Notes under the pieces: model-generated
Seen by the model: the letters and a program-made list of their open reading frames with translations, nothing else
Database searches by the model: none
What the model was told of the DNA's origin: nothing
In this document: positions 1,749 through 16,660 of the stretch, one piece after another
Position numbering within the stretch: position 1 is the first letter of the stretch
How the letters are laid out: each line of letters opens with the position of its first letter
Origin: a virus
Virus record (IMG/VR): IMGVR_UViG_3300017782_000074
Coordinates: 1-36,889 of that record
Length of the DNA stretch: 36,889 nt
Strand: one strand, 5' to 3'
Program-made: the position numbers and the translations under genes

Positions 1749-2036
1749 ATGTTTGAGATTAAAATGGGTACTCTTTTACAACCTATAGTCAAAACCAGTA
1801 AAGATGGAGGTCTTTCTATGGAGGATTTGACAGAAGCTTGTGTTAGTAAAATATTATCTGTATCTGAAACTGCTCCTCCTGAAATACGAGAACAAGCTAA
1901 ATTTTTTCAAGACAAGTTACAACAAGTTATTTTTAATTATTTAAACCAAGCAGCACAATCGCAAAAAGATACTTGTGTTCAAGTATGCGTTAAGGCAGGA
2001 GAGCAAAAGGCTGCTAACATTTTAAGGAGGCTATAA
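1749..2036 (+). CDS. Conserved hypothetical phage protein
   Basis: A 95-residue, mainly helical protein with no recognised domain. The middle is acidic (MEDLTEACVSKILSVSE), and two Cys lie near the C-terminus (DTCVQVCVKAG). The ATG at 1749 is supported by an AGAGGA ribosome site ending about 5 bases upstream. A second in-frame ATG lies five codons further on (MGTLL). The stop TAA overlaps the next ATG by one base, and the AAGGAGG ribosome site for the next gene lies inside this gene's end. Lying between connector and fibre genes, it may be a structural or assembly factor. Confidence 0.5.
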   Translation: MFEIKMGTLLQPIVKTSKDGGLSMEDLTEACVSKILSVSETAPPEIREQAKFFQDKLQQVIFNYLNQAAQSQKDTCVQVCVKAGEQKAANILRRL

Positions 2037-2464
2037 TGGCTATTACTCAAGCAATGTGCTCTAGTTTCAAACAAGAGTTATTAGTAGGCACACATAATTT
2101 TACAAACAGTTCTGGAAACACTTTTAAACTAGCGTTATTTACAAGTTCTGCTAGTTTAGGTGCTGCTACTACAGCTTATTCATCATCTAATGAAGCTAGT
2201 GGAACTAATTACTCAGCAGGAGGAAATACATTAGTTAATCAGACACCTACTTTGGATAGCACGACAGCTATTACTGATTTTTCAGATAGTTCATGGAGTA
2301 GTTCTACTATAACAGCCAGAGGAGGTTTAATTTATAACTCTTCTGCTAGTAATAAAGCAGTAGCTGTTCTTGATTTTGGATCAGATAAATCTTCTTCAAA
2401 TGGCACATTTAGCGTTATTTTTCCAGCACCAGCGGCTTCTACTGCAATTATTCGCATAGCGTAA
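2036..2464 (+). CDS. Small beta-rich virion structural protein
   Basis: A 142-residue protein dominated by Ser, Thr, Ala and Gly with alternating hydrophobic residues, which predicts an all-beta fold. It starts with a short helix (MCSSFKQELLVG) followed by FKLALFTSSASL, a pattern I recognise from conserved phage structural proteins of unknown exact role. A strong AAGGAGG site precedes the ATG, which overlaps the previous stop (TAATG). Position at the head of the fibre block suggests a decoration or fibre-associated protein. No enzymatic motif is present. Confidence 0.55.
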   Translation: MAITQAMCSSFKQELLVGTHNFTNSSGNTFKLALFTSSASLGAATTAYSSSNEASGTNYSAGGNTLVNQTPTLDSTTAITDFSDSSWSSSTITARGGLIYNSSASNKAVAVLDFGSDKSSSNGTFSVIFPAPAASTAIIRIA

Positions 2465-2824: not shown

Positions 2825-3199
2825 ATGACTGCACCGAATATCGTAGATGTAGGCACAATAACTGGTAAAACTAATTATTTTGCTTTATCTAGTACAAATG
2901 CAACAGTTATAGCAACTAATACTGCATCTAGCGGAAAAGTTTTTAAAGTAAATAGTCTAGTAGTAGCTAACGTAGACGGAGCTACTGCTGCTGATATAAC
3001 CATTACAGTTAACTCTGCCGATGATGGGGCAGGTACTGCTTACGCATTAGCAAAAACTATATCTGTTCCAGCAGATGCCTCTTTAATTGTAATAGACAAG
3101 TCTACTGCTGTTTATCTTGAAGAAGACAGATCTATAGTTGCTACTGCTGGTTCTGCTAATGATTTAGAAATTGTAATAAGTTATGAAGAGATCAGTTAA
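2825..3199 (+). CDS. Small beta-sandwich virion protein
   Basis: A 124-residue, all-beta, acidic protein. The core reads VFKVNSLVVANVDGATAADITITVN followed by SLIVIDKSTAVYLEEDRSI, when split over neighbouring strands. Proteins of this kind are common small structural components in marine phages. It is similar in size and general character to the protein at 16295-16660, which also has Thr-rich strands and a hydrophobic end. A GGAGGG ribosome site lies at the end of the previous gene, and the TAA overlaps the next ATG. Exact role unknown. Confidence 0.5.
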   Translation: MTAPNIVDVGTITGKTNYFALSSTNATVIATNTASSGKVFKVNSLVVANVDGATAADITITVNSADDGAGTAYALAKTISVPADASLIVIDKSTAVYLEEDRSIVATAGSANDLEIVISYEEIS

Positions 3200-4758
3200 T
3201 GAGCGACAGATATCCAGGAGGAGTTCTTTCAACAGAAGGAGCAACAGCTAGTTTAACTTCTGCTACAGGAATGTGGACATTAGCCCAGCAACTGGGCTAT
3301 AAGGCATTGAATGTTTGGCCTTTATCCTCTGTATTTGTTACTCAAACCTTTACCGCTACTGGTACATCATCTTTCAAGGCTCCTGTTGGAGTCACCTCGA
3401 TAGAATATCTCGTTGTCGCTGGAGGTGGATCGGGAGGTGATAATGGTGGCGGAGGTGGCGGAGCAGGAGGCTTTAGAACTGGAACTGCGACTGTATCCCC
3501 TGGCACAGAATATCAAATAACTATCGGGGGTGGTGGAGCTAGTGCAACAAATAATGGAAATGATTCTGAAATTGATAACATAGGGAGTGGAACTGTTACC
3601 TCTACTGGTGGAGGAGGTGGAGGCAGTTCTGGTCCTGATTCACCAAATTATGCTGGATATGATGGAGGTTCTGGTGGCGGAGCACAACAAAGTGCAAGTT
3701 CTGGAAGAAATGGGTCTGGCACAGTAGGTCAAGGAAATGATGGTGGTGATGGAGTAGGAGGTGGCTCTGTTTCTGGTGCAGGAGGTGGTGGTGCAGGAGA
3801 GGCTGGCACAAATGCTGGCGGTCCAGGACACGGAGGATCTGGTTCTATTTCATCATTAATAGGAGTAGCAACTACTTATGCTGGAGGAGGAGGAGGAGGT
3901 TTTTCTACAGCAGGAAATGGGGGCTCTGGCGGGGGTGGAGATGGTGGTGACGGAAATAACAATGGAACATCAGGAAATGCTAATACTGGTGGTGGTGCTG
4001 GCGGAGGAGGTGGTTCAAATGGTCGAGGCGGGGCAGGTGGCTCTGGAATCGTGATCATTCGTTATAATCTTCCGATAGCAAATGCTATTGAATTTACAAA
4101 AACACAAAACTGGGTTTGCCCTACTGGTATAACTTCTGTGGATTTTTTAGTTGTTGCAGGAGGTGGAGGGGGTGGATCAAATGCCGCTGGAGGAGGTGGA
4201 GCGGGCGGCTTTAGAACAGGAACTCAACACTCTGTTATAGAAGGCAGTACATATACAATTACAATAGGTGCAGGTGGAGCAAAGGGAGCTAGTTCTTCTG
4301 GTTCAACAGGCTCTAATGGAGAAGACTCTTCTTTTTCTAGCATAGTATCTACTGGAGGTGGAGGTGGTGGGGGAAGCGTTCCAGGTGTAGCTCCAGGTAG
4401 TTCAGGAGGTTCAGGAGGAGGCGGTGGAGCATATGCAGGACAAGGAGGAAGTGGAACTGCCTCACAAGGAAATGATGGTGGTGATGGTGCAGCAAACCCA
4501 AATCTAGGTGCAGGGGGAGGTGGAGGTGCAGGTAGTGTGGGTTCAGATGGTTCTGGAGGAACTGGAGGTGCTGGGGGAACAGGATCAACTTCTTCTCTTT
4601 CAGGAAGTGATGTGACATATGCAATTGGGGGAACAGGATCAACTACAGCTTCTTCAGGTTTATCTAATAGAGGTAACGGAGGAACTGGTGGAACAGGTGG
4701 TAATTTTGGTGCGGCAGGAGGCTCTGGAATCGTGATACTCAAGTTAAGGACAGATTAA
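3199..4758 (+). CDS. Glycine-rich tail fibre/adhesin with two tandem modules
   Basis: A 519-residue adhesin. Residues 1-45 carry an anchor-like segment (SATGMWTLAQQLGYKALNVWP) that resembles the N-terminus of the LamG protein at 5514. Two homologous modules follow. Module 1 (about 48-291) runs from a beta strand ending IEYLVVAGGG, through GGAGGFRTGTATV and YQITIGGGG, to SGIVIIRY. Module 2 (about 297-519) repeats the order: VDFLVVAGGG, GGAGGFRTGTQ, YTITIGAGG, SGIVILK. Between these lie long runs of Gly with Ser, Thr and Asn. This matches glycine-rich phage adhesins that form polyglycine-type sandwiches and bind host surface receptors. The repetitive GGN codons create a GC-rich island in an AT-rich genome. 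Apparent Pro- or His-rich ORFs on the other strand are shadows. Confidence 0.8.
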   Translation: MSDRYPGGVLSTEGATASLTSATGMWTLAQQLGYKALNVWPLSSVFVTQTFTATGTSSFKAPVGVTSIEYLVVAGGGSGGDNGGGGGGAGGFRTGTATVSPGTEYQITIGGGGASATNNGNDSEIDNIGSGTVTSTGGGGGGSSGPDSPNYAGYDGGSGGGAQQSASSGRNGSGTVGQGNDGGDGVGGGSVSGAGGGGAGEAGTNAGGPGHGGSGSISSLIGVATTYAGGGGGGFSTAGNGGSGGGGDGGDGNNNGTSGNANTGGGAGGGGGSNGRGGAGGSGIVIIRYNLPIANAIEFTKTQNWVCPTGITSVDFLVVAGGGGGGSNAAGGGGAGGFRTGTQHSVIEGSTYTITIGAGGAKGASSSGSTGSNGEDSSFSSIVSTGGGGGGGSVPGVAPGSSGGSGGGGGAYAGQGGSGTASQGNDGGDGAANPNLGAGGGGGAGSVGSDGSGGTGGAGGTGSTSSLSGSDVTYAIGGTGSTTASSGLSNRGNGGTGGTGGNFGAAGGSGIVILKLRTD

Positions 4759-5003
4759 TGACAAAAATTTACAGATTTACAGGGGTTGATATTGCGGTTC
4801 ATTTACTTAGGCCAGATGCCAGATGGGAGTTAAGTTCTGAAAATGGTGGTTTACATTTTTCAAGGTGGGAAGATGAAAGACCTTGCCCTACAATAAAAGA
4901 AATACAAAAGGTTCAACAGCTAATGAAAGAAGTAGAAGATAAAATACCTACTGTTTGGAAAAAAGCTCAAGTACAACAAATACACAAAGAACAAGGAGGT
5001 TAA
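4758..5003 (+). CDS. Small conserved fibre-block protein, possible fibre assembly factor
   Basis: An 81-residue protein. The N-terminal half is conserved-looking (IYRFTGVDIAVHLLRPDARW), the middle has the Trp-containing SRWEDERPCPTIKEI, and the C-terminal half is a charged helix (KVQQLMKEVEDKIPTVWKKAQ). The ATG shares one base with the TAA of the glycine-rich fibre gene. Small genes directly after fibre genes are often fibre chaperones, so that role is possible, but the sequence gives no direct proof. Confidence 0.5.
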   Translation: MTKIYRFTGVDIAVHLLRPDARWELSSENGGLHFSRWEDERPCPTIKEIQKVQQLMKEVEDKIPTVWKKAQVQQIHKEQGG

Positions 5004-5004
5004 A

Positions 5005-5514
5005 GTGGCTCATTTTGCAGAATTAGATTCTAACAATATTGTTCTAAGAGTTGTCGTTGTAGGTAACGAAGATACTGCGGATGCAAAAGGCGTTGAAAAA
5101 GAATCTATCGGTCAAGCACATTTAGAAAAAGTTTTAGGTGGCACATGGAAGCAAACAAGTTATAACGCAAAGATTCGTAAACATTATGCAGGAAAAGGAT
5201 TTATTTATGATGCTTCTCGTGATGCTTTTATAGCACCTAAACCATTTAACTCATGGGTTTTGAATAATGATACTTGTGTGTGGGAAGCACCAAAAGCATA
5301 TCCTACAGACGGTGGAATTTATCAATGGAATGAAGAAAAGTTAGATTGGATTCTTCAGGAGGTAGACTTGAATGTTTCTTTAACAGGAGTTCAAGTATCT
5401 GCACAAGTTTCTTCTATGTTTACAATTGAGCCTACGGATATTGAAGTTAGCGTGGAAGGTAGTTCTTTACAAACGCATTTAAGTTTTAGTGCTAGTAATG
5501 TGAGCATTACATAA
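5005..5514 (+). CDS. Virion protein with C-terminal TGV-type beta repeat
   Basis: A 169-residue protein starting with GTG, supported by AGGAGG seven to eight bases upstream. Residues 1-115 form a conserved domain seen in marine phages (MAHFAELDSNNIVLRVVVVG, then YDASRDAFIAPKPFNSW and YQWNEEKLDW). The last 50 residues are beta-rich with LNVSLTGVQVSAQVSS, a degenerate match to the LTGV repeat unit of the protein at 11661. The stop overlaps the next ATG (TAATG), so it is coupled to the giant LamG gene. Probably a fibre-associated structural protein; no enzymatic motif. Confidence 0.55.
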   Translation: MAHFAELDSNNIVLRVVVVGNEDTADAKGVEKESIGQAHLEKVLGGTWKQTSYNAKIRKHYAGKGFIYDASRDAFIAPKPFNSWVLNNDTCVWEAPKAYPTDGGIYQWNEEKLDWILQEVDLNVSLTGVQVSAQVSSMFTIEPTDIEVSVEGSSLQTHLSFSASNVSIT

Positions 5515-8500
5515 TGAGTATGCGAAAAAAATATTCAGGAAGTGTTGTTAGGGCAAATCCTGTTGTTCCAACAGAGGATTCAGCATCAGGTATTTGGACG
5601 TTAGATCAACAAAACCAAAATCAAAAAAGAGGCACATGGCCTTTTGTTGGTGATCCGAACTTCAAAGATACCGTTTTACTTTTACATGGTGATACGAGTC
5701 AAACACCTTCTAGTGAAAGTCAATCCGCAGATAACCAAGAGGTTCGTTTAATTGGAGATGCGAAAGCAACTAATTGGAATCCTTTTAATTTGCCAGAAGG
5801 GTATTGGAGTGTTGCTTTTGATGGGTCTTCTCATATTGATGGTACATTGTCTTCTGCGATTGGCACAGGTGATATGACAGTAGAGTTTTGGTTTAATCCT
5901 ACAAGTTTTTATAATTACATTGCCATGTTTGCCATAAGTGCAGGAAGCAATAGAGGTGCTGGATTTAATATAGGAACAGAAAGTACTAATTCTGGACAAT
6001 TAAAATTTGTTGATACAGGGTTAGGCTCTAATCTTACAGTTAATAGTCAACTTGAATTAGGTGTATGGAAGCATATTGCTTGTACTAGATCAGGAACTAC
6101 GGTTCGACTTTTTGTTAATGGAACTGAAGTGGGTTCTTATACTGATGGTCAAAACTGGACAGGCACAAGTTTTGCTGTGGGGGGTAGATCTGATGATGGA
6201 ACAGAAGAGTGTACAGGTTACATAGCTAATTTAAATCTTGTGATCGGTACTGCAAAGTATACAACCAGCTTTTCTAAACCAACTTTTCCAATCACGGCTC
6301 ATGTAAATACAAAGTTACTTACTTGCCAATCAAACAGCTTTGTAGATAAATCAGTAGATTCAAGAAGTATATCTTTAGATGGCACACCAAGAGTAGAAAC
6401 ATTCTCACCTTTCTCATACACACCAATTGCTGTTGAAAATAATTACGGTAGTTATTATTTTGATGGTAGCACTACACAGGTTGCTTATCCCTCAAATGTG
6501 AACGAGTTTACCTTTGGAACAGGAGATTTTCATTATGAGTTTTGGCTATACCCTACTGGTGGTTCTGGAGCTCAAAGAACTTTAATAGGAAGAGATAGCA
6601 CAGGTGATGCTAACATTAATTATATTTATCTAACCACTGGAAATCATTTTAACTGGTATTTAACTGGTTCTATAAATTTAGGTAGTTCGACACTTATACA
6701 TTTATATTCTTGGTATCACTTAGTGGTTTCTAGAAAAGATGGCACATTACGTTTGTTTGTAAACGGAGAGCAAAAAGCTTCTGCTGCAAATACAACAAGT
6801 ATGATAGATCCTGTTCACACAACTATTGGTTCAGGAGATACTGATGGTACACAACATCCTTTTACTGGTTACATTTATAATGTAATTGTAAAGAGTAAAG
6901 GTGTAGATAGTGTTACCGTTCCAACAAAACCAACAGAACTAACTTTAACCGAAGGTGAGAACTCCGTTTACTTTGATGGTAGTGGGGATTATTTAAAATT
7001 AACTAATACTAATTTCACAGACTTTGATTTTGGAACTGGACCATTCTTAATTGAAGGTTGGATATATTACACTACTTTAGGAACTACAATACTTGGTCAA
7101 ACTGGTTGGGGCAATGTTTTTCAAAGGAACATCACTAGCAATGTGTTTCAATTTTATCAAGCTGCTTCAGCAGGAGATAGTGGAGCTTATTGGATAACAG
7201 GAACGACAACTCTTCAGACATATAAATGGTATCATTTTGCTCTTCAAAGAGATAATTCTGGAAATTTAGATTTATGGGTTAATGGATCAAGAGATGCAAC
7301 AAATACCACTTATGCTTCAACAGAAATGAAGTTTCATTCGGGTAAAGGTGATATAACAGTAGCTTATTGGAATGGTGGTGTTTCTGCTGGTGTAAATTAC
7401 ATTTCAAATTTAAGAATAAAAAATTCTGCTGTTTACACATCTGGAGCAACAATAACTGTTCCAACAGCACCCTCTCCAGCAACAACTGGAGTGTTACTGG
7501 CCTGTGCTTCTAGATACATTGAAGATAGATCTCCAGCGAACCATGATATAGCAGCGTATGGAAATGCTGTTGTTTCAGGATTTAATCCTTTTAATGAGGG
7601 ATATTGGAGCGTTCATTTAGATAGCACTTCTGACAAGATTCAAGTGGCTACCGCATCAGCTTTACCTTCTGGTACAGCAGCTAGAACAATTGAGTTTTGG
7701 GCAAAGGTTTCAGGAGCTCCTGATAGCACACAATACTTTTTTGGTTATGGAAACAATTCTGCGGGCGGTAATTTTAGTTGGGCAAGAAATGGTTCTGGAA
7801 AATTCGCATTCTTTGGTTACAACGGATATGATTGGGATACAACAGTAGATGTTCCATTAACAAAATGGTTTCATGTAAGTTTAACCTATAATGGCTCGCA
7901 AATTAAATTTTATTTAGACGGAAGTTTAAGTCATACGCAGTCGTATAGTGGATCAACTGCTTCTGTTTCTAATTTATATATAAACCAAGAGGCTAGTGGA
8001 TCTGGTTTTGCTTTTGCTAATTTAAAAATTAGCAATTTTATTATGTATTCTTCAGTAGTAAGAACAGGAGACTTTACAGCACCTACTGTTCCTGAAACAG
8101 ATACAACAAACGTGGTTCTTTTAGTTGCTCAATCTAGTAGGCCCATAGATAACTCTTCTAACTCAAATACAGTTACTCTTACAGGGGCTACTATTGATGA
8201 AGACATCCCATTCACACTACCATCGAGACAAACAAAACTTCTTGCTGTACACAATAATCAAGATGTAAATAATAATTCTTTTCAAGATTCTTCTTTGTTA
8301 AAAAACTTTATTACTAGAACAGGGAACGTGGCTCAAGGTACGTTTAGTCCGTTTAGTGCGGAAGAGGGGTATTGGAGTTATTACTCAGATGGCGATGATG
8401 CTTTTACTGTTGCAGCATCGTCAGAGCATACATTAGATGCTGATTTTACCGTGGAATTTTTTGTGTATCCAATAGAAACTTTTGGTCATCACATTTATTT

Positions 8501-10118
8501 GAGTGCAATCAACGGTAGTGCTGATTTGCAAATTGGTTACAAGTCTGGAGATAGGTATTTACACGTTTGGTTAAGTGGTGGAGGTAACAAAATATTGGGA
8601 GCTTCATCAGCAAATTCTTTAATACGAAATCAATGGAATCATGTGGTATTTTGTAGATCAAGTGGAACCATTGCATTGCTGAGTAATGGTAATAGGCTCG
8701 ACACCGCATCAGATACTCAAACTATGAATTTCTCAGGATTAAATATTGGAAGATATTCAAGTGGTGGCTATGATCAAATTCAATATATGTCTAATGTTCG
8801 TATTGTCAAAGGGTCTTGTGAGTATGATATATCTCAAACTACATATACTCAACCATCATCCCCACTAACAGCTATTACAAATACAAAATTACTTACTTTA
8901 CAGAGTAACAGGTTTGTTGACAACTCTACTTCAGGTCATGTTTTGTCGGTTGTTAACACACCAAAAATAACGTCATTTGCACCCTTTGCACCTCGTAGAT
9001 CGTACAGTAAAGAAGTGGTAGGGGGTAGTGCGTATTTTGATGGAACTGATGACAAGCTTACAGTGGCTTATGGGGAGAGTATTGGAGCAGGTGATTTTAC
9101 TATCTCTGCATGGGTTTACAGAACATCTAGTGGAACATATCCTGTGATTTTAGATACAAGATCAAGTGATGCAGATACTAAACCAGTAATTTATACAGAT
9201 GGTTCTAGCTTATATTATTATACTGCTGGAGGTATTCGTATTACTGGTTCTAGTGCAATTAACAATAATGAATGGATTTTTGTTAGATTAGTAAAAGAAT
9301 CAAATGTTACAAAACTTTTTGTAAATGGAACGCAAGTTGGTAGTGATTATTCAGATAGTAATAACTATACGCCAACAAACGATTGGGAAATAGGTAGTAG
9401 GCATACTGATCAGCACTACTGGCCTGGATATATTTCAAACCTTCAAGTTGTTTTAACTGCTTTAGATGGAACTTCTGTGCCAACAGCACCTTTTACATCT
9501 GATGCAAACACAAGATTACTTCTAAACTCTACTGATGGTGCTGTGATAGACAACACAGGAAAAAATAATCTTGAGACAGTTAATGATGCAAAAGTATTTC
9601 CTTATACTAAAAAATTTGGTAACGGATCTATGTACTTTGATGGTACTGGTGATAAAATGATTCTCCCTCATTCTGAATTACAACAACTTAATACTGGGCA
9701 ATTCACAGTAGAATTATTTGTATATTTTACTGCTACTGACGCCAGACAAGGATTTTTTGGGAATGATGGGGGTTGGTATTTTCAAATTTATGACGGTGAA
9801 TTAGAATTTGCTCTAGGTGTTAGTGCGATTATAGAAAGAACATTTTCACATAGTCTTAATCAGTGGTATCACTTAGCTGCTACTAGGGATTCGTCAAATG
9901 ATGTTCGTTTGTTCATTGATGGCACTCAACAAGGAGCAGTTGTAAATAGTACTGCTAACTTGCGTCATAATTCTAATGTATTTCATATTGGAAATATCGG
10001 TCCAAATACTACTAGACCTTTTAAAGGGGGGTATATGGATGAGATTAGAATAACCAAAGGTGTTGCTAGATACATTTCAGACTTTACCGCCCCAACTAGA
10101 GCGTTTAAAAATAGGTGA
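5514..10118 (+). CDS. Giant adhesin with seven LamG/concanavalin A-like domains
   Basis: A 1534-residue protein and the largest gene here. Residues 1-45 form an anchor (SASGIWTLDQQNQNQKRGTWP) shared with the glycine-rich fibre. Seven LamG-like domains follow, with strand pairs of the type (Y/F)DG and TVEFW near residues 96, 310, 483, 696, 953, 1173 and 1373. Each domain ends in a W-hydrophobic-H or W-x-F element, then RLFVNG-like and GYI-N-L strands. Linkers repeat a pattern like TKLLTCQSNSFVDKS ending in FSPF. LamG folds bind carbohydrates or proteins, often with Ca2+, so this is probably a receptor-binding or glycan-binding tail protein. No hydrolase signature is obvious. The start overlaps the previous stop by one base. 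An internal DEDIPF is coincidental. Confidence 0.8.
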   Translation: MSMRKKYSGSVVRANPVVPTEDSASGIWTLDQQNQNQKRGTWPFVGDPNFKDTVLLLHGDTSQTPSSESQSADNQEVRLIGDAKATNWNPFNLPEGYWSVAFDGSSHIDGTLSSAIGTGDMTVEFWFNPTSFYNYIAMFAISAGSNRGAGFNIGTESTNSGQLKFVDTGLGSNLTVNSQLELGVWKHIACTRSGTTVRLFVNGTEVGSYTDGQNWTGTSFAVGGRSDDGTEECTGYIANLNLVIGTAKYTTSFSKPTFPITAHVNTKLLTCQSNSFVDKSVDSRSISLDGTPRVETFSPFSYTPIAVENNYGSYYFDGSTTQVAYPSNVNEFTFGTGDFHYEFWLYPTGGSGAQRTLIGRDSTGDANINYIYLTTGNHFNWYLTGSINLGSSTLIHLYSWYHLVVSRKDGTLRLFVNGEQKASAANTTSMIDPVHTTIGSGDTDGTQHPFTGYIYNVIVKSKGVDSVTVPTKPTELTLTEGENSVYFDGSGDYLKLTNTNFTDFDFGTGPFLIEGWIYYTTLGTTILGQTGWGNVFQRNITSNVFQFYQAASAGDSGAYWITGTTTLQTYKWYHFALQRDNSGNLDLWVNGSRDATNTTYASTEMKFHSGKGDITVAYWNGGVSAGVNYISNLRIKNSAVYTSGATITVPTAPSPATTGVLLACASRYIEDRSPANHDIAAYGNAVVSGFNPFNEGYWSVHLDSTSDKIQVATASALPSGTAARTIEFWAKVSGAPDSTQYFFGYGNNSAGGNFSWARNGSGKFAFFGYNGYDWDTTVDVPLTKWFHVSLTYNGSQIKFYLDGSLSHTQSYSGSTASVSNLYINQEASGSGFAFANLKISNFIMYSSVVRTGDFTAPTVPETDTTNVVLLVAQSSRPIDNSSNSNTVTLTGATIDEDIPFTLPSRQTKLLAVHNNQDVNNNSFQDSSLLKNFITRTGNVAQGTFSPFSAEEGYWSYYSDGDDAFTVAASSEHTLDADFTVEFFVYPIETFGHHIYLSAINGSADLQIGYKSGDRYLHVWLSGGGNKILGASSANSLIRNQWNHVVFCRSSGTIALLSNGNRLDTASDTQTMNFSGLNIGRYSSGGYDQIQYMSNVRIVKGSCEYDISQTTYTQPSSPLTAITNTKLLTLQSNRFVDNSTSGHVLSVVNTPKITSFAPFAPRRSYSKEVVGGSAYFDGTDDKLTVAYGESIGAGDFTISAWVYRTSSGTYPVILDTRSSDADTKPVIYTDGSSLYYYTAGGIRITGSSAINNNEWIFVRLVKESNVTKLFVNGTQVGSDYSDSNNYTPTNDWEIGSRHTDQHYWPGYISNLQVVLTALDGTSVPTAPFTSDANTRLLLNSTDGAVIDNTGKNNLETVNDAKVFPYTKKFGNGSMYFDGTGDKMILPHSELQQLNTGQFTVELFVYFTATDARQGFFGNDGGWYFQIYDGELEFALGVSAIIERTFSHSLNQWYHLAATRDSSNDVRLFIDGTQQGAVVNSTANLRHNSNVFHIGNIGPNTTRPFKGGYMDEIRITKGVARYISDFTAPTRAFKNR

Positions 10119-11660: not shown

Positions 11661-12872
11661 ATGTCATATTCTAGTTCTCCTTACTCACAAGCTCCTTACT
11701 CCGCAGAGGGTCAACCTGCTGTTGATCCTAATGTATCTGTTGATGTTACAGGAGTAAATGCTACAGGAGCAGTAGGGACACTAACTGTAACAGGAGATGC
11801 TTCTATAACTCTAACTGGTTTAGCAGGAACAGGAGCAGTAGGAACAGTTACAGTTGGAGAAGGTGTTGGTGTAACTCTAACAGGTGTAGAAAATGGTCAG
11901 ATTCGATATACCGTAACTGCGGTCACAGGAGCCTATGTTGTTGACGGTGTAAATAATCCTGCTCTTACTTTAACCAGAGGATTAACTTATTACTTTGATA
12001 TAAACGCATCAGGACATCCTTTCTTTTTACAAACTGTAGCTGCTCCTTATAATTCTGGTTATTTATATAACACAGGGGTTACGAATAACGGTACACAGTC
12101 AGGCACATTGACATTTACTGTTCCATTTAATGCTCCAGATACTTTGTATTACGTTTGCCAGTATCACTCCAACATGGGCAATCAGATTAGCATTGTTGAC
12201 CAAGTTGGTGATGTAACCGTAAACACAAGTTCGCTTCTTAATGTAACTGGAGTAAGTGGTACAGGTGCAGTTGGCGATGAAACAGTAAACTTTGGTTCAT
12301 CTATTAACTTAACTGGAGTAAATGGTACAGGAGCGGTCGGAACTGTATCTATACCAAATGTAGGTATCTCTCTAACAGGGGTCAACGGAACAGGAGCCAT
12401 TGGAGATGTAACAGTTGATGCAGGAGGTAATGTCACCGTTACTGTAACAGGGGTTACTGGAACAGGTGGTGTAGGAAGTGTTACCATTCCTAATGTAGGC
12501 TTTACTTTAACGGGAGTGGCAGGAACGGGTGCTGTAGGTACAGTAACCGCAGGAGAAGAAACAAATGTGGCAAGGCCAAGCGGTGTTCAAGCCACAGGAG
12601 CAATAGGTACAGTCACAGTTGGAGAGGGTATTGGTGTAACTCTAACGGGAGTGGCAGGAACAGGTGGTGTAGGAAGTGTGACAGTAGATATAGTTACACC
12701 TGTTAACGTAACAGGTGTAGTAGGAACAGGAGCGGTTGGAAACGTAACGATACAGTTTCAACAAGATGTTTTTGTTTCTGGAGTAGGTGCTATAGGGGCA
12801 ATTGGTAATTTAACTATTTGGGATCCTGTAAACGATGCACAAAGTGCAACATGGACAAACGTAATTAATTAG
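11661..12872 (+). CDS. Virion beta-repeat protein with inserted cupredoxin-like domain
   Basis: A 403-residue protein. After a short N-terminal anchor (MSYSSSPYSQAPYSAEG), it consists of about eleven complete copies of a unit close to LTGVNGTGAVGTVTV, spaced roughly 20-25 residues apart. The third unit begins as LTGVENG and is interrupted by a domain at about residues 78-182, after which the unit resumes as QVGDVTV. The insert has a cupredoxin look: a strand with SGHPFFLQ (His119), then TFTVPFNAPDTLYYVC and QYHSNMG, giving Cys166, His169 and Met172. These are the four ligand types of a type 1 copper site. The repeats predict a beta-solenoid or fibre shaft; the insert could bind copper or act as a surface-binding domain. 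Confidence 0.7.
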   Translation: MSYSSSPYSQAPYSAEGQPAVDPNVSVDVTGVNATGAVGTLTVTGDASITLTGLAGTGAVGTVTVGEGVGVTLTGVENGQIRYTVTAVTGAYVVDGVNNPALTLTRGLTYYFDINASGHPFFLQTVAAPYNSGYLYNTGVTNNGTQSGTLTFTVPFNAPDTLYYVCQYHSNMGNQISIVDQVGDVTVNTSSLLNVTGVSGTGAVGDETVNFGSSINLTGVNGTGAVGTVSIPNVGISLTGVNGTGAIGDVTVDAGGNVTVTVTGVTGTGGVGSVTIPNVGFTLTGVAGTGAVGTVTAGEETNVARPSGVQATGAIGTVTVGEGIGVTLTGVAGTGGVGSVTVDIVTPVNVTGVVGTGAVGNVTIQFQQDVFVSGVGAIGAIGNLTIWDPVNDAQSATWTNVIN

Positions 12873-12882
12873 AGGTTGAAAA

Positions 12883-14247
12883 ATGGCTCAGACATATGAA
12901 GATGGTTTAAAACTTAGCCTCATCACTCCAGGAACAGAATCTGGAACGTGGGGAGGTATTACAAACAATAATATAAAACAAATCGTAAAAGGTATGGGAG
13001 GATACAAATCAGTTACTGTATCTGGTACTTCTGCTACGATTAGCACTAGCGATGATGTTTCTCAAGATTTAGATTTTAGACAGTTATATCTAAACATAAC
13101 AGGATCGTCTTCTGGTGCGTTTACTTTAAATCTTCCTGCAATTCAAAAAGTATATATCGTTAAAAACGGTATAAACCATGCCATGACTGTAAAACTTACA
13201 GGAGAATCTGGTTCGGGAGTAACAATTGCACAAGGAAAAGTTGGTATTGTGTATCTTACAGGAACTAACGCTGTAGCTGCTTTTGATAGTTTTCCAGCTG
13301 CAAATCTTACAGGAACTATTCCTGTAGCTAGTGGCGGAACTGGTTTAACGTCTGTTACAAGCGGTGCTGTGTTAATTGGTAATGGAACAGGAGCTTTAAC
13401 TGTAAGAGCAGGTGGATCCACAAATGATGTTCTCACATGGAATGGTAGTACTTGGGTTTCACAGGCTCCAGCGGCAGGAAGCGGAACAGTAACTTCTGTT
13501 AGTGGTTCTGGAACAGTAGATGGAATTACTTTAAGTGGAAGTTTTACAACCTCTGGAACTCTTACTTTAGGTGGTGGAATAAGTGGAGTTGTAAAAACTA
13601 CTGGGTCTAGTACGCAGACTATAGAAAGTCCTTTACTATCTACCGCGGGATCTGGACAATATTACATGGGAAGCACTAGTTATGCGATAGGTCAGTCAGG
13701 TGGATCTGTTAGTATTTCTGCTAGTGGAATAGGGTATCAATTATCTAGTTCGTACAATTTATTTACTAGAACTTTAGTCAGTCAATCTTCTCCTGTTGAT
13801 TTAGGATTGAATAATTCAAACAATGCTTTCGGAAGTTTGTATTACACAGGAAGTTTAACGGCAGTTTCTGATCAACGAGAAAAAAATAATATTGCAGATT
13901 CAGATTTAGGTTTAAGTTTTATAAATGCATTAACACCTAGAAAATATACAAAAAAATTTGGAGCTTCTGTTTTTCAAAAATTAGATGAAAACAATATTCC
14001 TGAGTATTCTATTAAAACAGGATCAAGACCTCACTATGGTCTAGTTGCTCAAGAAGTAAAACAAGTTATGACCGATCAATCTATTTCTGATTTTGGCGGT
14101 TGGAAAATACAAGATACTACGGATGCAAATTCTACACAGTTCTTAGCTTATGAAGAATTCATATCTCCAATGATAAAAGCAATACAAGAGCTTTCTGCGA
14201 AAGTCACTACACTTGAAGCGAAAGTAAAGGAGCTAGAGTCTAAGTAA
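12883..14247 (+). CDS. Tail fibre with C-terminal S74 self-cleaving chaperone
   Basis: A 454-residue fibre. The N-terminus (TYEDGLKLSLITPGTESGTW, then GGITNNN) is a common phage fibre N-terminal domain. The middle is Gly/Ser/Thr-rich beta sequence with IPVASGGTGLTSV, a repeat typical of fibre shafts. From residue 329 the peptidase S74 intramolecular chaperone begins: SDQREKNNI supplies the Ser329/Lys334 catalytic dyad, followed by RPHYGLVAQEVKQVM, LAYEEFISPMIKAIQEL and a terminal coiled coil (LSAKVTTLEAKVKELESK). These domains trimerise, guide fibre folding and cut themselves off just before the Ser. The stop overlaps the next ATG. Confidence 0.85.
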   Translation: MAQTYEDGLKLSLITPGTESGTWGGITNNNIKQIVKGMGGYKSVTVSGTSATISTSDDVSQDLDFRQLYLNITGSSSGAFTLNLPAIQKVYIVKNGINHAMTVKLTGESGSGVTIAQGKVGIVYLTGTNAVAAFDSFPAANLTGTIPVASGGTGLTSVTSGAVLIGNGTGALTVRAGGSTNDVLTWNGSTWVSQAPAAGSGTVTSVSGSGTVDGITLSGSFTTSGTLTLGGGISGVVKTTGSSTQTIESPLLSTAGSGQYYMGSTSYAIGQSGGSVSISASGIGYQLSSSYNLFTRTLVSQSSPVDLGLNNSNNAFGSLYYTGSLTAVSDQREKNNIADSDLGLSFINALTPRKYTKKFGASVFQKLDENNIPEYSIKTGSRPHYGLVAQEVKQVMTDQSISDFGGWKIQDTTDANSTQFLAYEEFISPMIKAIQELSAKVTTLEAKVKELESK

Positions 14248-16294: not shown

Positions 16295-16660
16295 ATGGCT
16301 AACTCATACAGAAGATTTTTTCACAAAAATGTGGCTACAGGGTCAACAACTACGGTTATGACTGTTCCTGCTGCAACAACTGCAATTGTTAAATCTGCGA
16401 TTGTAGAGAACAAAAACTCAAGTAACAACGAATTTAAAATGATTGCAGGATTAGATAGTAATGCTTCTGATATTACTTTATCTACTACAACTGTTTCTAC
16501 TTTGACGGCTGTTGACCTGTTGGTAGGTGGTGCAAGTGCCTTTGGAGGAAGCGGTGCAAAAGGTCCCGTGATCCTTGAGGCAAATGACACGTTGAAGTTT
16601 CAAGCTAGTCAGGCTAGTGGAAATGTAATAATAAGTGTTTTACTAGTAGACAGAAACTAA
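16295..16660 (+). CDS. Small beta-rich virion protein
   Basis: A 121-residue, all-beta protein: RRFFHKNVATGSTTTVMTVP, then TAIVKSAIVENKNSSNNEF, a Thr/Leu-rich middle, and a C-terminal pair of strands (ILEANDTLKFQASQASGNVI, then ISVLLVDRN). This is similar in size and style to the protein at 2825-3199 and to small fibre- or capsid-associated proteins of marine phages. The ATG follows directly on the TAA of the 58-residue gene, and a GGGGG ribosome-like stretch lies just upstream. It closes the second fibre block; the next 82 bases are non-coding. Exact function unknown. Confidence 0.5.
   Translation: MANSYRRFFHKNVATGSTTTVMTVPAATTAIVKSAIVENKNSSNNEFKMIAGLDSNASDITLSTTTVSTLTAVDLLVGGASAFGGSGAKGPVILEANDTLKFQASQASGNVIISVLLVDRN

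Follow-up and report, generated by a model that had tools for sequence, protein, structure and literature searches.

Two classes of a conserved N-terminal peptide, putative docking elements of exchangeable adhesins in uncultured aquatic phages

How do two adhesins of unrelated build come to share an N-terminus, and what may this N-terminus do for the virion? The question is raised by a viral DNA stretch of 36,889 nucleotides (IMG/VR record IMGVR_UViG_3300017782_000074, positions 1 to 36,889; the window), in which a glycine-rich adhesin of 519 residues (adhesin A) is encoded upstream of a 1534-residue adhesin with laminin G-like (LamG) domains (adhesin B; Table 1). An initial annotation had pointed out the motif SATGMWTLAQQ...NVWP in the first protein and SASGIWTLDQQ...GTWP in the second; both were recovered, at residues 21-41 and 23-43, respectively. 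From these motifs, a common docking peptide had been proposed by which alternative adhesins could be mounted at a single site of the virion. We consider a modified reading fairly probable: the ~42-residue N-termini, hereafter anchors, would be docking peptides of two paralogous kinds, A and B, each serving a virion slot of its own in which adhesins can be exchanged.

The shared N-terminus and its two classes

When the two proteins are compared by BLASTP, residues 1-42 of A pair with residues 3-44 of B (14/42 identical, expect value (E) 8e-4); the likeness thus starts at the very N-terminus (MSDRYPGGV and MSMRKKYSGSV), earlier than originally noted. The remainders are unrelated, as the annotation had stated, the next local match being glycine low complexity (E 1.0). 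The likeness exceeds chance, since a profile derived from 100 anchors that lie on other contigs, the lineage of the window and phage DSL-LC04 being excluded, retrieves both proteins from the 267 open reading frames (ORFs) of at least 40 residues in the window, the next best scoring E 0.4. The bodies behind the anchors match Gly_rich_2 in A (160.1 bits, Pfam cut-off 24.3) and Laminin_G_3 in B (351.4 bits, cut-off 27.6). Two boxes make up the anchor: box 1, MS.RY.GG.I, and box 2, A.G(V/I)WTL.Q......(G).WP.

Relatives were collected by scanning viral contigs with four N-termini, those of the window included, which yielded 533 pattern matches and, from these, 356 relatives. The best 80 of the 356, together with DSL-LC04 and the window, constitute a set of 82 loci carrying 140 anchors: two in 56 loci, one in 25 and three in a single locus. 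Nearly all are N-terminal (in 137 of 140 domains, the alignment starts no later than model position 5), and the remaining three consist of box 2 only. Among named records, only DSL-LC04 (OR003939.1) was found to carry the anchors; it has a fibre and a lectin gene in the same order, with the same N-terminal peptide, and is described in the excerpted account of PMC10611076 as a metagenome assembly with a predicted host. Against named phages, tblastn with the class A anchor returned DSL-LC04 alone, with the class B anchor DSL-LC04 and nine Microcystis-phage or cyanophage records at recA genes (E 0.5), and with the type II anchor nothing. A PDB sequence search with the anchor found no relative (best E 0.34). 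The annotation had reasoned that a motif residing mainly outside virion adhesins would speak against docking; a scan covering 84,980 bacterial and archaeal species, each represented by a single genome, gave 37 pattern matches and one relative, as compared with the 356 in viral contigs. A bacterial origin was considered and rejected: the sole prokaryotic relative reads as a chance DUF11-like repeat rather than as an N-terminal tag. Searches of one literature collection retrieved no paper describing these anchors.

The order of the two genes is constant in the related aquatic phages, A being followed by B in successive genes, and gene order served as the only class label on the anchor trees. After dereplication of the 140 anchors to 117 distinct ones, FastTree split all 47 first genes from all 48 second genes (support 0.74), with the fibre of the window in class A and its LamG protein in class B. 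Removal of 22 singles, of rows shorter than 35 residues and of near-duplicates (clustering at 90% identity) left 77 anchors for IQ-TREE, in which 34 first-gene anchors form one clade versus 43 second-gene anchors, with one label change (ultrafast bootstrap 95, Shimodaira-Hasegawa-like approximate likelihood ratio test 89.8); here, the window is represented by a near-identical row (L005, class A) and by a row with an identical anchor (L003, class B). The consensus sequences are MSmRYkGgviSAt.PTts.s.A.GvWTL.QQmQa.aag.WP for A and MS.rYPGG.ItK.P..Ptts.A.GiWTL.Qa.qy.kaG.WP for B. An earlier split by regular expressions, which had put the first gene of the window into B and left six anchors unassigned, was replaced by the tree.

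Both classes are well preserved at the protein level. The proportion of nonsynonymous differences (pN) is below that of synonymous differences (pS) in 1175 of 1176 class A pairs and in all 1081 class B pairs, with mean pS and pN of 0.73 and 0.26 (A) and 0.74 and 0.29 (B); synonymous sites are nearly saturated. Judged by these substitution patterns, the anchor is under strong purifying selection.

The bodies behave differently from the anchors. Body comparisons were confined to 123 complete proteins (17 of the 140 being incomplete), and domain counts to 51 A and 53 B proteins, after near-duplicates had been removed by eye (9/60 and 7/60, respectively). At an anchor identity of 80-90%, 53 of 239 class A pairs have matching bodies; at 70-80%, 38 of 249 class B pairs do. 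When each protein was paired with its most similar body from a different locus, the partner was of the other class for 34 of 104 proteins (19 of the 123 lacked a body match of 50 bits and were left out), as opposed to 5 of 123 for the closest anchor, and similar bodies occur on A and B of one genome in 19 of the 51 loci with both proteins complete. From the pattern of these similarities, bodies move between A and B genes and anchors rarely do. The motif search and listing of attached domains that the annotation had suggested revealed glycine-rich, LamG, beta-propeller, fn3 and DUF7483 bodies: Gly_rich_2 in 29 A and 14 B proteins, SBBP propeller in 12 and 10, Laminin_G_3 in 1 and 10, DUF7483 in 2 and 8, and fn3 in 2 and 6. 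Among the PHROG families matched are those of virion structural proteins, the baseplate wedge and tail fibres. The proposed docking peptide is hence retained as a conserved N-terminal tag under purifying selection, found on unrelated bodies that match adhesin and virion families, with docking as its presumable role. The single virion site is not: since A and B occur together in genomes (56 loci with two anchors) and form separate lineages, two fixed slots with exchangeable bodies fit the data.

The upstream protein, split boxes and neighbouring genes

The most constant neighbour of the anchors is a small beta-sandwich protein, whose gene immediately precedes A in 61 of the loci analysed for neighbours. 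By the gene caller, this family lies 5' of the anchors in 73 of the 82 loci, at most 60 bases from the first anchor gene in 64; it also occurs in L017 and L010, and the remaining seven loci have only 7 to 1318 bases upstream. The cultured phages S-SKS1, HTVC033P and Bellamy carry the family as well. For the window protein, AlphaFold2 predicts an all-beta structure (predicted local distance difference test (pLDDT) 90.7), the structural matches of which in the PDB include the KHP40 cement protein (Z 9.6), the HFTV1 turret (Z 9.3), nucleoplasmin-like chains (Z 9.4-9.7), the STIV turret and Ena pilus subunits. As nucleoplasmin-like chains are equally close and the arrangement is common, the fold says little about function. 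A sequence search of the PDB with the family found no relative (best E 0.11), and the match to phrog_1276 is weak and partial (E 5.3e-5; residues 20-123 to positions 10-111 of a 325-position profile). We regard this protein as the most likely candidate for a receiving or adaptor partner of the anchors. Three loci (L027, L031 and L049) have two upstream beta-sandwich genes each, and in the first two a two-box N-terminus opens the gene after each copy. A second phrog_1276-like gene of the window (16295-16660, E 2.4e-4) resembles the family preceding A.

A further sample was assembled starting from the upstream family (best 80 of at least 571 relatives; 79 new loci, L088-L166), in 68 of which a close downstream gene is present. 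Four kinds of N-termini follow the family there: the A/B anchors, NGGIIG...GVW..(Q)....WP on two genes, a tag termed type IV, and split boxes; the regular expressions for this typing were written after inspection of the sequences, and the typing is descriptive. Genes with box 2 only number 28, in 28 of 161 loci, and are usually located just 3' of a gene bearing box 1 alone. Loci seemingly without A have two genes instead, the first starting with MSMRYQAAILTASYFPL or KGKGGFIGQDGLNAPD and the next with MPNFSGLWTSRQQMQALGDGIWP or similar, followed by B where the contig extends that far. A box-2 matrix trained on fused anchors of other loci scores the box-2-only starts at up to 46 bits, compared with -9 for the best of 157 minus-strand ORFs, and among the matches listed (60/123) assigns them to class A. 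In L007, both split genes have adhesin-like domains (fn3 in one, fn3 and Gly_rich_2 in the other). The distribution of the boxes over two A-slot adhesins suggests a separate contact for each box. L094 and L099 have a fused form, KGGFIG...SGVWSL..TQMQ...WP.

The type IV tag (ASG.LPNGKPVVVNADGTVSV) is found on up to three successive genes after the upstream family; as ASG.LPNGKPVVVNADGTVSV or SITAGKPVIVEADGDV, it was seen in L091, L100, L105, L106, L117, L122, L128, L131, L136, L139, L140 and L149. A sulfotransferase gene (PF13469) stands among the adhesin genes of L160 (7354-9231, E 1.1e-20) and L162 (8675-10444, E 2.3e-16), in the latter between the box-2-only gene and B.

The remaining neighbours are listed in Table 1. 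A family annotated as 2OG-Fe(II) oxygenase occurs two to four genes after A in 12 loci (e.g. L001:5324-5944). A repeat-rich, virion-like protein of the window (11661-12872) contains a region, residues ~80-180, that reads like a copper-protein fold; the Pfam match is weak and below cut-off (PF25489, E 7e-4).

Table 1. Anchors, adhesins and neighbouring genes in the window
Feature	Position	Strand	Evidence and occurrence
Class A anchor, first 41 residues of adhesin A	3199..3321	+	profile E 2.8e-18; first-gene clade
Class A box 1, MSDRYPGGVLST	3199-3234	+	
Class A box 2, ATGMWTLAQQLGYKALNVWP	3262-3321	+	
Adhesin A, anchor and two glycine-rich stretches	3199..4758	+	Gly_rich_2 PF21722 E 1.1e-46; phrog_2295 E 1.7e-79
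Class B anchor, first 43 residues of adhesin B	5514..5642	+	profile E 5e-19; second-gene clade
Class B box 2, ASGIWTLDQQNQNQKRGTWP	5583-5642	+	
Adhesin B, anchor and seven LamG / concanavalin-like stretches	5514..10118	+	Laminin_G_3 PF13385 E 6.5e-106
Beta-sandwich protein ("LEC", ~125 residues) directly upstream of A, candidate docking partner or adaptor	2825..3199	+	
phrog_644 protein of the upstream cassette	2036..2464	+	38 genes in 30 loci
phrog_21526 protein (81 residues) between A and B	4758..5003	+	neighbour clustering: family present in 15 loci
phrog_7759 small protein between A and B, possibly a fibre accessory	5005..5514	+	family: 72 genes in 56 loci
Peptidase_S74 chaperone domain protein, here downstream of B	12883..14247	+	family two genes before A in 41 loci

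Comparison with known receptor-binding systems

Short conserved N-termini on receptor-binding proteins have precedents. According to the excerpted account of PMC6872550, to which the published systems cited here refer, phage K1-5 mounts two receptor-binding proteins with conserved N-terminal peptides on the adapter gp37, and in KP32 viruses a 29-residue peptide is found on the second receptor-binding protein. The plan that K1-5, G7C and KP32 have in common, a short conserved N-terminal peptide with varying bodies, is also found here, with unrelated bodies in each case; two such proteins per virion are described there, and the same would hold here. Unlike in K1-5 and KP32, the two anchors are paralogous versions of a single two-box peptide of ~42 residues, kept as two lineages, and box 2 (box 1 less clearly) may sit on separate adhesins; moreover, the bodies are lectins and glycine-rich proteins rather than depolymerases.

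As in anchored tail fibres and tailspikes such as T7 gp17 (pfam03906), the N-terminus is conserved and the distal part variable; in contrast to the ~42 residues here, the T7 anchor is a long domain, residues 1-154 of which are compared in the same account. No match to pfam03906 was obtained for window proteins at E 0.1 or for A and B proteins at E 0.001 (25 of 26 B families listed). Likewise, the listed matches of a Pfam sequence search with the scanned window proteins and the A and B proteins (again 25 of 26 B families) include no T4gp10-like docking domain. Related arrangements are those of HTVC033P (gp64/gp62) and S-SKS1 (SWZG_00008/00007), in which the same upstream beta-sandwich family is followed by adhesins sharing an N-terminus (NGG.IG); their peptide differs, however, and has no box 2, and their bodies are glycine-rich or LamG only. 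By this comparison, the anchors appear to be a previously undescribed variant of the known conserved-N-terminus plan.

The proposed two slots and the alternatives

The two-slot reading envisages the following mechanism. Each two-box peptide would attach one adhesin at a distinct position on the virion, such that a phage would carry two adhesins at once, one per slot. Recombination within one phage or between different ones would exchange the receptor-binding bodies behind the anchors. The A slot could also be filled by two separate adhesins, a box-1-only protein and, next to it, a box-2-only protein, and the small beta-sandwich protein encoded just upstream may act as the receiving or adaptor protein. 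On this reading, which we infer, the anchors contact the virion, each class has a site of its own, and the split boxes represent the two halves of a single plug.

Several observations weigh against this reading. The lineage split could be explained by vertical descent after one duplication, without two sites; distinct sites are therefore likely, short of proof. The anchor tree was built on ~40 residues, and the anchor sample comprises the 80 best among 356 relatives, retrieved with a query to which the window itself contributed. A structure model of the anchor alone is weak (pLDDT 74, predicted template modelling score 0.43, one short helix), as expected of a peptide. For the split loci, a box-1 matrix lifts only seven first genes, two of them near-identical, over the best control (11.1 bits), several of these fit the B box-1 matrix better than that of A, and the KGGFIGQDGLNAPD kind is tied to box 1 only via its position and the GG.I pattern. 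The upstream protein is weakened as a specific receiver, since anchor type is tracked loosely: its nearest neighbour shares the anchor type in 74 of 122 cases (shuffles: mean 43, maximum 63; 16 of 138 genes were left out because the next gene could not be typed), and type IV and split groups are intermixed in its similarity.

How would other arrangements fare? In a branched chain, A would sit on the virion and the N-terminus of B would dock either on A itself or on a small linker, an arrangement like that of the double receptor-binding systems of G7C or KP32 type. The published pattern (PMC6872550) indeed consists of two consecutive receptor-binding genes whose products have short, conserved N-termini, and A is invariably first, beside the upstream cassette. 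Yet A and B share both boxes, whereas the published pairs, as far as the excerpted account goes, combine a long anchor with a different short peptide; a T4gp10-like family is absent among the listed Pfam matches of the 51 A and 53 B proteins; and in view of the complete turnover of A bodies, B could dock only on the anchor region of A. We consider such a chain unlikely. Alternatively, the N-terminus may serve as an assembly signal, a trimer start or a site of chaperone recognition, and make no virion contact. The peptide is short, and the phrog_7759 protein often encoded between A and B could be a fibre accessory. A trimer signal, however, requires neither two separately conserved classes nor boxes on separate proteins, and conserved N-termini are described as attachment elements in the same account, which makes this explanation decidedly unlikely.

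The original proposal, that A and B compete or mix at the same virion site, accommodates the motif common to both and the same menu of bodies on both. It is very unlikely in the face of two lineages, a fixed gene order and the presence of both genes together, with so few anchors nearest to the other class. Finally, the common N-terminus might simply have been left over from a recent duplication and have no role; no supporting point was found, the high mean pS and low mean pN contradict it, as do the often unrelated bodies behind near-identical anchors, and we give it almost no credence.

The two-slot reading can be extended to a more general picture, which we put forward tentatively and with some doubt: a mount with two fixed slots behind a beta-sandwich adaptor, with adhesins directed to the slots by a two-box code that can be divided between proteins, such that two adhesins may become three by splitting the tag. 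NGG.IG and type IV would be alternative codes for this mount, and the system would be widespread among uncultured aquatic phages. If the two-slot reading is right, a short tag would suffice to find the receptor-binding genes of many uncultured freshwater and marine phages and to allot each to a slot, including those with unrecognisable bodies, and a virion could change its binding while the mount remains unchanged. The split boxes would then offer a direct way into the question of how a phage gains an adhesin.

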